A DNA stretch of 38,869 nucleotides from the NCBI GenBank assembly GCA_017882165.1, contig JADGPZ010000011.1:1-38869 (forward strand), written 5' to 3'. Made by a program: the position numbers and the translations under genes. Of this stretch, positions 794 through 4,473 are shown piece by piece (the first letter of the stretch is position 1; each line of letters begins with the position of its first letter). Source of the DNA: Candidatus Kapaibacterium sp. (GTDB lineage Bacteria; Bacteroidota; Ignavibacteria; Palsa-1295). The notes below the pieces were generated by a model, which ran no database searches, was not told the origin of the DNA, and saw only the letters and a list, made by a program, of their open reading frames with translations.

Positions 794-2377
794 CTATCTC
801 GCGAGCGCGACCTTGGCCGTTGCAGACTTATCCCCATTTAACCGAACAATGTAGGCACCGTTCGGGACATCAGGCGGAATCCCGATCCGGTACTCCCCTG
901 CCCCATACTCCCCACTCAGCAACGATGCAACGCGCCGGCCAAGCATGTCGAACAATTCGATCGACACCCGCTCGTGATCCGCAAGTTGAAACGCTACCGA
1001 CGGACGGAGCCCATCACCCGTGATCCATAAACGGTCCTGGGCGGCGGGGATGCCACCCACCACGCCTGCGCTGGAAGCCGTATCCACAATTTGCGCCGTC
1101 CATACGCTGAGCAGCGAATCGTCCATCCGCATCCAGACCGGATACACGTGCCGGTCATAGGCGGTGATGCCAATGTAATCGCCAATGAATACTTTGGAGA
1201 ACGGCTCGAACGCGTTTTCGCTGATTTTCTCGTTGGTAAACGATTCGCCGCCATCGGCGGATCGAGCCAGATACACGTCGGTCATCGACACACTCCACGG
1301 CTGGCCACCGATATAATTGCGGCGGTCGTAAAAGACGATGTAGATCCGGCCTGTCACCGGATCGAGCGCCATGCTCGGGAAGAAGTGATGGTTCAGGGAC
1401 GAGTCATCATTCACGCGAATTTCCTTGCTCCATGTCGCGCCGTCGTTGGTCGAGCCCATGAAATAGACATCGGTCACGCCGCGCCGCTGATCGGACCACA
1501 TGATGTAGAGTCTGCCATAGTATGGAGATTGCGGATTGAGATCGGACGCCAGCATCGCGAATCCATTCGCACGCGAAATGCCCGGAACATCAAAGTTCCA
1601 GCCACCGGGCTGCTCGGCGATGATCCGGTCCTTGCCGAACGTTCTACCGCCATCGGTCGAGCGATCAAAATAAATATGCTGCCGCGCTTGCCAGGCGATG
1701 TTGATAGAGCCATCGGGGCTTGCGGCAGTTGTGATTCCCTCGACGGTATTACTGCTGTCAAGACAATCCCCGGCCGTGTCATCGACCCGAACGCGACCGG
1801 ACCAATTCTTACCACGATCGCTGCTCAAAGAGAAGTACATACGCGAGCTATCCAAGGGCAATGTGCTCGCATACTTATCAAACTCCGTCCATGAGGTGTA
1901 AAGCATACCTTTGGAAGCCGTCTGCGAGCGGTCGAGCGCAAGCCAGGCTTTATCCTGTTGTGTAGGCGGATCAAATCCAATCTCTGCCCCGTTATCGAAT
2001 GTGCGTCCGGCGTTGCTCGATCGTTGCACGACAATGCGCCAGAGGAATTGGGTATCCACCGGAGGCCAACCATGACCAGAAAGATGCTCGTAGTATAGGA
2101 TCCCCGAATCGTCAAACATCAGACAGGGATCGCCCCACACGCCAAGCGGCTGATCGATGTGCGTCATATCCCACGTCGCTCCGGCATTCGAGGATGTGAA
2201 GAGATAGCTGATGTTCGCGCCGACGGCAAGCTGATTCAGATTTTTAGGATTAAGGGCGATCGAGACCTCTTCAGGATCGCGCAGGCTCGGCTCGCTAATG
2301 CGAATATTTACCGGCTGGGCACGGAGTACCGGCACGCAGAGTATGAGAGCGATGAAAAACGAGACAAGCCTTAGCAT
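794..2377 (-). CDS. Secreted BNR/Asp-box (sialidase-like propeller) protein with T9SS type A C-terminal sorting domain
   Basis: Signal peptide MLRLVSFFIALILCVPVLRAQ; repeated Asp-boxes (SSNAGATW, SSDRGKNW, STDGGRTF, STNDGATW, SADGGESF); C-terminus VSIELFDMLGRRVASLLSGEYGAGEYRIGIPPDVPNGAYIVRLNGDKSATAKVALAR. Confidence 0.85.
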   Translation of the reverse strand: MLRLVSFFIALILCVPVLRAQPVNIRISEPSLRDPEEVSIALNPKNLNQLAVGANISYLFTSSNAGATWDMTHIDQPLGVWGDPCLMFDDSGILYYEHLSGHGWPPVDTQFLWRIVVQRSSNAGRTFDNGAEIGFDPPTQQDKAWLALDRSQTASKGMLYTSWTEFDKYASTLPLDSSRMYFSLSSDRGKNWSGRVRVDDTAGDCLDSSNTVEGITTAASPDGSINIAWQARQHIYFDRSTDGGRTFGKDRIIAEQPGGWNFDVPGISRANGFAMLASDLNPQSPYYGRLYIMWSDQRRGVTDVYFMGSTNDGATWSKEIRVNDDSSLNHHFFPSMALDPVTGRIYIVFYDRRNYIGGQPWSVSMTDVYLARSADGGESFTNEKISENAFEPFSKVFIGDYIGITAYDRHVYPVWMRMDDSLLSVWTAQIVDTASSAGVVGGIPAAQDRLWITGDGLRPSVAFQLADHERVSIELFDMLGRRVASLLSGEYGAGEYRIGIPPDVPNGAYIVRLNGDKSATAKVALAR

Positions 2378-2387
2378 TCACAAGACT

Positions 2388-2395
2388 GAACTTTG
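2388..2395 (+). promoter_or_regulatory. Possible Bacteroidota-type -7 box (GAACTTTG, near TAnnTTTG) for the metH leader
   Basis: gaactttg matches TAnnTTTG at 5 of 6 fixed positions and lies ~25 nt upstream of the SAM-II-like element. Confidence 0.3.
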
Positions 2396-2419
2396 AACAC
2401 CGCACTGCCGTTTCCCGAA

Positions 2420-2480
2420 CCGCGTGGTGCTTTGACCGATAGCTTGCCGCCACGATAAATAATGAGCTAAAGCGTCGACG
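2420..2480 (+). ncRNA. SAM-II (SAM-alpha)-like riboswitch upstream of metH
   Basis: cgcGTGGTGcTTTGACCGatAGCTTGCcGCCACGaTAAATaatgaGCTAAAGcgtcg resembles the SAM-II core as recalled from the metX riboswitch and the SAM-alpha family (GUGAUUU..CCG..GCUUGC..CCACGuUAAA..GCUAAAG). P1 is cgtggtg (2423-2429) with cgccacg (2448-2454). It sits in the leader of a methionine synthase gene. Confidence 0.78.
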
Positions 2481-2491
2481 CAAAGAATATT

Positions 2492-2538
2492 GAACCCGGA
2501 GCGTCGGCCTGTGCGGTCGCCTTCGGGTTTTTCTATTT
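2492..2538 (+). terminator. Intrinsic terminator-like hairpin in the metH leader
   Basis: aacccggagcg ... cgccttcgggtt stem followed by tttttctatttt, ending a few nt before the metH ATG at 2542. Confidence 0.6.
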
Positions 2539-2541
2539 TCA

Positions 2542-4473
2542 ATGTCAGAACAAGAGCTTACCTGCACCTACGATCCGCTGAAGGAATTCCTCGCGCACTA
2601 CGCCGATGCGAAATCGGTGAAAAGCGAGACGTCGTCCTACGCGAACATGACGATCGAGGAGAAGCTCAAGCAGCGGATCATCGATGGCGATCGGCTTGGA
2701 CTCGATGACGATCTCCGCGCGGCAATGGGGATCGGGTCGGCGGTCAGGCCGGAGGCACCGACCTACTCCGCACTTCAGATCATCAACGACATTCTGCTCG
2801 GCGGCATGAAGGTCGTCGGCGAGCTGTTTGGCGCAGGCGAAATGCAGCTTCCGTTCGTGCTCCAATCGGCCGAGACGATGAAGGCCGCCGTCCGATTCCT
2901 TGAGCCCTTCATGGAAAAGTTGGAGGGTGAGCAGTCGAAAGGTGTGATGGTCCTCGCAACGGTCAAGGGCGATGTGCATGACATCGGCAAGAACCTCGTC
3001 GATATTATCCTCACGAATAACGGTTACCGCGTTGTCAATCTTGGCATTAAAGTCGCGCTCGAACCGATGCTGGATGCCGTCACGCGCGAGCGTGCGGACG
3101 CGCTCGGTATGTCCGGCCTGCTCGTGAAATCGACCGCCATCATGAAGGAAAACCTCGAAGTGATGGAGTCGCGGAACATCCGGATTCCGGTCGTGCTCGG
3201 CGGTGCGGCTCTCACGCGGAAATTTGTCGAGAAAGACTTGCGCGCGCTTTACAACGGCCCTCTCTCCTACGCGCAGGATGCCTTCGATGGTCTTCACTTC
3301 ATGGAGCAACTAAAGAACCCGGCAGCGGTCGCAACCGCGTCCATTTCGTCCATCGTGTCCACTCCGTCCACTGAGAGCGCCGATGATTTCGAAGAAGAAC
3401 TCGACAACGCCACCGGCGCCGATTCCAAGATAGTGATGGCCAGCCGCGTGCTGCCGTGGTTGCAACATCCGAAGCAAACAACCTCTGGAGCGGAGAAGAG
3501 CGTCGAACTCGAAGCGATGGAAGAAGAGATCGCGGTTTTCCCGATCGCCGTCCGCACGATCGAGACTGCTGAAGGCACCGAGAAACTTGTCCGCACCAGC
3601 ATGACGCCGCACGATAATCTGGTACCCACTCCGCCCTTCTGGGGCTCCCGTGTCGTCGAAGACATCAAGCTTGAGAAGGTCTGGGAATACCTGAACGAAG
3701 TTGCCCTCTTCCGCGGACAGTGGCAGATGAAGCGCGGCAAGAAATCGCCGGAGGAATTTGCGAAGCAGGTCGAGGAAGTCGCCCGGCCAAAGCTCGCGGA
3801 GTTCAAGCTCCGCGCCAAACGCGATCGTGTGCTCGCGCCGAAAGTGGCCTATGGATATTTTCCCTGCTATTCGGAAGGCGAGGATCTGGTGGTTCTCCGA
3901 CCAAAAGACCAATCGGACCTATTCGACCGATGGGACCAATTTGTCCTATCTGACTTGGAAGAGTGGACTCGCTTCACCTTCCCGCGCCAGCCAACGGCGC
4001 GGCGGCTCTGCATTTCCGACTTCTACCTGCCGAAAGAAGAAGCCGAGCGGCAAGGCCGGACGGATGTGGTTGCGTTCTCCGCCGTCACGGTCGGCCGAGA
4101 GGCCAGCCTTTACACGGCAAAGCTCTTCGAGGCAAATGAATACTCCGACTACCTCTTCATGCACGGGCTTTCGGTTGAGACGGCCGAGGCACTGGCTGAG
4201 TATTGGCACAAAATCGTCCGCACCGAACTTGGCATTGCCGATCACGATGCCCCCGAAATTACCCGGCTCTTCAGCCAGGGCTACCAAGGCTCCCGCTTCT
4301 CCTTCGGGTATCCGGCGTGCCCGAATCTGGAAGACCAAACTAAGCTTTTCGAACTCATCCGGCCCGAGCGCATCGGCATCACACTCACCGAGGAGTACCA
4401 TCTGGAGCCGGAACAATCGACGACGGCCATCATCGCCCACCACCCCAGCGCGAAGTATTTCGCCATTAAATGA
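2542..4473 (+). CDS. metH: Cobalamin-dependent methionine synthase, C-terminal half only (cap + B12-binding + AdoMet activation domains)
   Basis: Cap domain YSALQIINDILLGGMKVVGELFGAGEMQLPFVLQSAETMKAAVRFLEPF; B12 motif VKGDVHDIGKN; activation domain YGYFPC, RFTFPRQP, RFSFGYPACPNLEDQ, GITLTEEYHLEPEQSTTAIIAHHPSAKYF. No homocysteine or pterin domain is present. Confidence 0.92.
   Translation: MSEQELTCTYDPLKEFLAHYADAKSVKSETSSYANMTIEEKLKQRIIDGDRLGLDDDLRAAMGIGSAVRPEAPTYSALQIINDILLGGMKVVGELFGAGEMQLPFVLQSAETMKAAVRFLEPFMEKLEGEQSKGVMVLATVKGDVHDIGKNLVDIILTNNGYRVVNLGIKVALEPMLDAVTRERADALGMSGLLVKSTAIMKENLEVMESRNIRIPVVLGGAALTRKFVEKDLRALYNGPLSYAQDAFDGLHFMEQLKNPAAVATASISSIVSTPSTESADDFEEELDNATGADSKIVMASRVLPWLQHPKQTTSGAEKSVELEAMEEEIAVFPIAVRTIETAEGTEKLVRTSMTPHDNLVPTPPFWGSRVVEDIKLEKVWEYLNEVALFRGQWQMKRGKKSPEEFAKQVEEVARPKLAEFKLRAKRDRVLAPKVAYGYFPCYSEGEDLVVLRPKDQSDLFDRWDQFVLSDLEEWTRFTFPRQPTARRLCISDFYLPKEEAERQGRTDVVAFSAVTVGREASLYTAKLFEANEYSDYLFMHGLSVETAEALAEYWHKIVRTELGIADHDAPEITRLFSQGYQGSRFSFGYPACPNLEDQTKLFELIRPERIGITLTEEYHLEPEQSTTAIIAHHPSAKYFAIK
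3337..3372 (+). repeat. 9-nt-period degenerate tandem repeat (4 units) inside metH
   Basis: gcgtccatt tcgtccatc gtgtccact ccgtccact; encodes part of ASISSIVSTPSTES in the linker between the B12 and activation domains. Confidence 0.75.
3907..3954 (+). repeat. 9-nt-period degenerate tandem repeat (5 units) inside the metH activation-domain coding region
   Basis: gaccaatcg gacctattc gaccgatgg gaccaattt gtcctatct gac; encodes roughly DQSDLFDRWDQFVLSD. Confidence 0.8.

Follow-up and report, generated by a model that had tools for sequence, protein, structure and literature searches.

Genes of the locus

The window, that is, the whole stretch of DNA analysed here (38,869 nucleotides), contains at positions 2542..4473 of the plus strand a gene for the C-terminal half of the B12-dependent methionine synthase MetH, a protein of 643 aa. 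It matches the metH model TIGR02082 at positions 612–1182 of 1182 only, and its Pfam domains are the cap (PF02607), the B12-binding domain (PF02310) and the activation domain (PF02965), the latter encoded by a single gene in this 97%-complete genome. The N-terminal half, a protein of 607 aa with the S-methyl_trans (Hcy) and Pterin_bind domains, is encoded on contig C27 and covers positions 3–613 of the same model. Since the two proteins divide the model between them and are encoded on separate contigs, the methionine synthase is split in two, and the initial annotation was right in describing the gene downstream of the leader as only a half-MetH.

Genomes of the Kapaibacterium, Kryptoniota and Ignavibacteriae types often carry a C-half that stands alone, while MetH is full-length in other relatives. 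Because the near relatives that have names are MAGs bearing the label Ignavibacteriae or Bacteroidetes bacterium, the host is placed as an uncultured lineage in this part of the Bacteroidota.

The gene upstream of metH is divergent. It encodes a BNR-repeat-like protein (794–2377, minus strand), and its start is separated by about 10 nt from the putative promoter element of metH described below. A similar protein is encoded 5' of metH in the loci L003 and L012.

The leader of the C-half gene

The whole 38.9 kb window was scanned against 4227 Rfam families with cmscan. The scan yields a match to RF00521, SAM_alpha (SAM-II), at 2414..2490 of the plus strand, with the score of 42.0 bits against the gathering score of 36, the E-value of 2.7e-6 for the whole window and all model positions, 1–79, covered. 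At the gathering threshold none of the 4227 families has a second match in the window. Hence the SAM-II class, originally proposed from the letters alone, is upheld by the Rfam model.

The P1 stem-loop, formed by 2423–2429 and 2448–2454 of the plus strand, has seven pairs in the window sequence, one of them G·U; it lies exactly where it had been described before, as does the other sequence mentioned there. In the alignment of 17 relatives, 94% of the P1 cells are paired, and a double change between G-C and C-G is seen among them. The pseudoknot P2 is formed by the 5' strand at 2437..2443 (CGAU followed by AGC) and the 3' strand at 2466..2477 (GCU AAAGC GUCG, the conserved GCUAAAGCG), both on the plus strand: 2437–2440 pair with 2474–2477, and 2441–2443 pair with 2466–2468. 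P2a is paired in 17/17 sequences, yet it is invariant, and P2b is paired in 78% of cases across the same 17 sequences. P2b is complete in the window, where it comprises about 4 bp, compared to 2 bp in the N-half copies. The pairing of the aptamer structure exceeds that of all slid controls, while the covariation support for P2 is modest. The cores UUUGA, AGCUUGC, UAAA and GCUAAAG show little or no variation among the 17 sequences, and the element precedes a gene of methionine/SAM metabolism, the ATG of the C-half metH being at 2542.

Between the aptamer and this ATG there is an intrinsic terminator hairpin (2493..2529, plus strand). Its part 2494–2528 folds at −20.2 kcal/mol (z −3.2), only 1 of 200 shuffles being as good, and is followed by the U-rich tract TTTTTCTATTTT (2528..2539, plus strand), read directly from the sequence, which ends just 5' of the start codon. 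The intrinsic terminator recognised earlier by eye is therefore confirmed. A generic terminator scan of 2300–2700 reported none; its rule permits only loops of 3–8 nt after the stem, and the miss is probably due to this rule together with the internal bulges that interrupt the stem. A hairpin with a U-tract is situated close before the start codon in every SAM-II leader of the family that we examined, these terminators being found by the search or read by eye, with two non-family leaders added by eye. The hairpin sequence varies between the family leaders, while the hairpin and the U-tract persist. Relatives whose metH is full-length likewise have terminators in their SAM-II leaders. Judged from these features and from the antiterminator considered below, which is also conserved, we regard the element as a genuine riboswitch of the SAM-II class that is followed by a terminator; its ligand would be SAM.

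Upstream of the aptamer, GAAC (2388–2391) and CGTT (2409–2412) are separated by 17 nt on the plus strand. This pattern is conserved in the family leaders, and we take it to resemble promoters of ECF sigma factors. The strict form is present in 10 of the 18 SAM-II leaders of the family and a looser one in 15 of the 18, with chance expectations per leader of about 0.0009 and 0.004, respectively. It is situated 34–40 nt 5' of P1, and other spacings produce at most one match each. Hence GAAC-N17-CGTT is a putative promoter that would put the transcript start just 5' of P1. Inspection by eye found no such pattern in the leaders of family f3 or of full-length metH. The longer variant GAACT-N15-CCGTT, which is the form present in the window, is rare and not enriched genome-wide (four matches versus four in the control), thus it is no general promoter, and a scan of 2300–2700 for sigma-70 promoters yields nothing. 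The initial annotation had suggested a TAnnTTTG promoter. The box GAACTTTG is indeed found at 2388–2395, with one mismatch, but it is not conserved in the relatives; it starts with the −35-like GAAC, and the conserved element is GAAC-N17-CGTT, so that the promoter role of the box was rejected.

Proposed coupling of the terminator to the pseudoknot

The segment GUCGACGC at 2474..2481, which overlaps the 3' strand of P2b, is complementary to GCGUCGGC at 2501..2508 within the 5' arm of the terminator, both on the plus strand. The energy of this duplex is −16.0 kcal/mol in the window and between −13 and −18 kcal/mol in six C-half leaders of the same genus. As this antiterminator overlaps both P2b and the terminator arm, the pairings are mutually exclusive. 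Exclusive folds of pseudoknot and terminator had been named earlier as a point to check; the choice, however, is not simply between these two, as an antiterminator made by the 3' strand of P2 with the 5' arm of the terminator intervenes. In the antiterminator fold GACCG (2434–2438) is able to pair with CGGUC (2514–2518). In the predicted folds of the nascent RNA, which leave out the pseudoknot and the ligand energy, transcripts with 3' ends at 2510–2524 have the antiterminator as the minimum free energy structure, which is joined by the latter pairing once 2514–2518 are transcribed, and from 2528 on the terminator is formed.

The coupling was assessed in 26 leaders by the best duplex of the terminator 5' arm with short leader segments, compared to shuffled segments. 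For the C-half leaders, the P2 3' strand with its extension yields a mean of −14.3 kcal/mol against −9.2 kcal/mol for shuffled segments, z −6.3, with the reservation that this and the following z-scores ignore the shared ancestry of homologues. The P2 3' strand is also complementary to the terminator arm in the leaders of full-length metH and of the family f3 N-halves (z −6.4). In genera g1 and g4 the P2 3' strand of the N-half leaders shows no such complementarity (z −0.2), and it is the P2 5' strand that pairs with the terminator arm, GACCAAC with GUUGGUC (z −7.6). The P1 5' segment, the P1 3'/L3 segment and the upstream segments produce no clear terminator-arm signal in the 26 leaders. Matched aptamer–terminator pairs from the C-half leaders have the mean energy of −15.9 kcal/mol, compared to −5.9 to −10.4 kcal/mol with the aptamers of other groups. 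A generic, less specific test, which takes the share of the terminator 5' arm that pairs with upstream sequence, gives a marginal difference: 0.58 versus 0.51 for shuffled leaders, with 1 of 30 shuffles as high. The strands of the antiterminator hardly vary in the genus of the window, which limits real covariation.

The aptamer, the terminator, the exclusive pairings and their conservation are direct results of the computation, and from them we infer SAM binding, SAM-dependent termination and co-regulation of the two halves. The region 2388–2541 would then be a SAM-II transcriptional OFF switch in the leader of the stand-alone C-half metH, and we assign to this reading the probability of about 85%. 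At low SAM, 2474–2481 would pair with 2501–2508 in the terminator 5' arm, assisted by the pairing of 2434–2438 with 2514–2518; the antiterminator so formed would block the terminator, and metH would be transcribed. With SAM bound, P2 (2437–2443 with 2466–2477) would sequester GUCG at 2474–2477, the hairpin 2493–2529 would form, and RNA polymerase would halt before the ATG. Since the N-half gene also has a SAM-II terminator switch of its own, both MetH halves would respond to SAM jointly. SAM-controlled termination, as proposed at the outset, is thus likely, but it is no exception among SAM-II elements, for which transcriptional control is the usual mode (PMC1273637, PMC2258182).

Three other explanations have to be considered. 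The SAM-II element could govern the translation of metH, the hairpin merely occluding the start codon: the ATG is 12 nt past the hairpin end, some SAM-II elements, one from a Sargasso Sea metagenome and that of S. meliloti metA, target the ribosome-binding site (PMC9373788), and in the more distant class members L015, L017 and L021 weak SAM-II-like matches come with AAGGAG beside an ATG. However, the window has no Shine–Dalgarno sequence from the aptamer to the ATG, the complementarity targets the terminator 5' arm, and all family leaders have kept the hairpin and the U-tract despite the sequence change; translational control of this metH is unlikely. That the terminator works apart from the aptamer, as a constitutive attenuator yielding a small RNA, has a parallel in S. 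meliloti metA, where a terminator 3' of SAM-II could not be tied to a riboswitch-driven antiterminator (PMC9373788). This is quite improbable here, given the specific complementarity between the aptamer and the terminator, which tracks the group-specific sequence changes.

Specificities for SAM and SAH differ among riboswitch classes, and P2b is short in some of the paralogues, as might be expected if the aptamer had drifted to another ligand, such as SAH, or had lost binding. But the core sequences are invariant or nearly so in the 17 sequences, and the downstream gene produces methionine, the precursor of SAM; such a drift is very improbable. The preferred reading remains that of SAM-dependent transcription termination, which is also the most likely mode of action of SAM-II on metH in these deep relatives of the Bacteroidota.

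SAM-II leaders in the related genomes

The second SAM-II of the genome is situated 5' of the N-half gene. Its RF00521 score, 30.7 bits, is below the cut-off, and the lineage covariance model, built from sequences that include this element itself, assigns it 75.5 bits. This leader (L002) also carries a terminator, with which, as in the N-half leaders of its genus, the P2 5' strand instead of the 3' strand would pair. In the genus of the window, SAM-II precedes the N-half in 7/7 genomes, one of them by a partial match combined with sequence reading, and the C-half in 6/7. In genera g2 and g3 of the same family it is found on the C-half only, and in family f3 before the N-half (L009, L014). Since GAAC-N17-CGTT is shared before both halves in the family and is unseen in the f3 and full-length leaders, the comparison of the leaders suggests that promoter, aptamer and terminator were copied as a unit to both MetH halves. 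We lean slightly towards a scenario in which this copying let SAM switch both halves off, two antiterminator wirings evolved, which use the 3' and the 5' strand of the same pseudoknot, respectively, and some copies accepted a hairpin in the loop. The paired copies form a natural experiment, in which one type of aptamer is coupled to the terminator via either pseudoknot strand.

The extra hairpin is situated between the P1 3' strand and UAAA in three leaders of the genus, the C-half leaders of genomes G001 and G004 and the N-half leader of G005; the three inserts all fold as hairpins. The insert-bearing aptamers are at L023:1356-1438, L024:1344-1426 and L138:1500-1585; sequence reading and the lineage model revealed the G001 and G005 variants. 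A strict insert pattern applied to 396 genomes of the phylum retrieves G004 only. For the G001 variant (L023), RF00521 recovers only the P1 part, with 19.6 bits, below the threshold. Hence loop-insert variants of SAM-II can escape the current Rfam model. Barrick and Breaker describe variable insertions of this kind for riboswitches in general (PMC2258182), and in the open-access literature that was searched we found no description of an insertion at this position of SAM-II.

The lineage model also yields SAM-II matches 5' of full-length metH in MAGs of the Ignavibacteriales, Pyrinomonadaceae/Acidobacteria and Neomarinimicrobiota and in other relatives. The matches in the Ignavibacteria, Acidobacteria-type bacteria and Neomarinimicrobiota suggest that the control of metH by SAM-II extends beyond the Alphaproteobacteria-centred view. 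SAM-II-like matches before full-length metH in the Acidobacteria-type and Neomarinimicrobiota MAGs are at L073:1048-1109, L114:828-874, L084:970-1016 and L117:1099-1160. The weak matches in L015, L017 and L021 are at about 1501–1577, where AAGGAG beside the ATG suggests a translational layout.

Relation to known systems

SAM-II aptamers with downstream terminators are well documented (PMC1273637, PMC2258182; also PMC9373788). The window element shares with the known SAM-II (SAM-alpha, metA element, RF00521) the P1 stem, the H-type pseudoknot P2, the conserved U-rich loop, the GCUAAAG tail, the terminator between P2 and the ORF, and a methionine gene downstream. The differences are the host, an uncultured Bacteroidota/Ignavibacteriae-type bacterium instead of the Alphaproteobacteria, the target, a half-metH, and the hairpin that some members of the genus add between P1 and UAAA. 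A 2014 survey of the Proteobacteria lists metY, metA, metX and related genes as targets of SAM_alpha (PMC4239095). For the SAM-II of S. meliloti metZ (sRNA RZ), too, binding of SAM is predicted to lead to Rho-independent termination (PMC9373788), but this element controls another gene, whereas here each of two loci of one split enzyme would be under such control, the antiterminator strands differing between them.

Split methionine synthases are already known. In the three-part MetH of Phaeobacter the domains are also encoded at separate loci (PMC5764234); here the split is into two parts, Hcy with pterin and cap with B12 and activation, PF02965 is kept, and each half has its own SAM-II leader. 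In the open-access literature that was searched we found no earlier account of a split metH in which each half has a SAM-II and the two differ in their antiterminator strands. The window element is largely an ordinary SAM-II; of most interest is the pair of copies with their different wiring.

A survey of 2007 did not find SAM-I and SAM-II together in any species, and tandem SAM-II/SAM-I arrays have been reported since then (PMC9481103). SAM-I (RF00162) is absent from the search results for the genome of the window, but it co-occurs with SAM-II in 10 of the 13 genomes of the family (loci L170-L177), and in most of those checked it precedes a cystathionine-gamma-synthase-like gene. At L066:567-683, 5' of metH, two P1-like stem-loops precede one GCUAAAGCGUCG tail, possibly a tandem or partly duplicated SAM-II.
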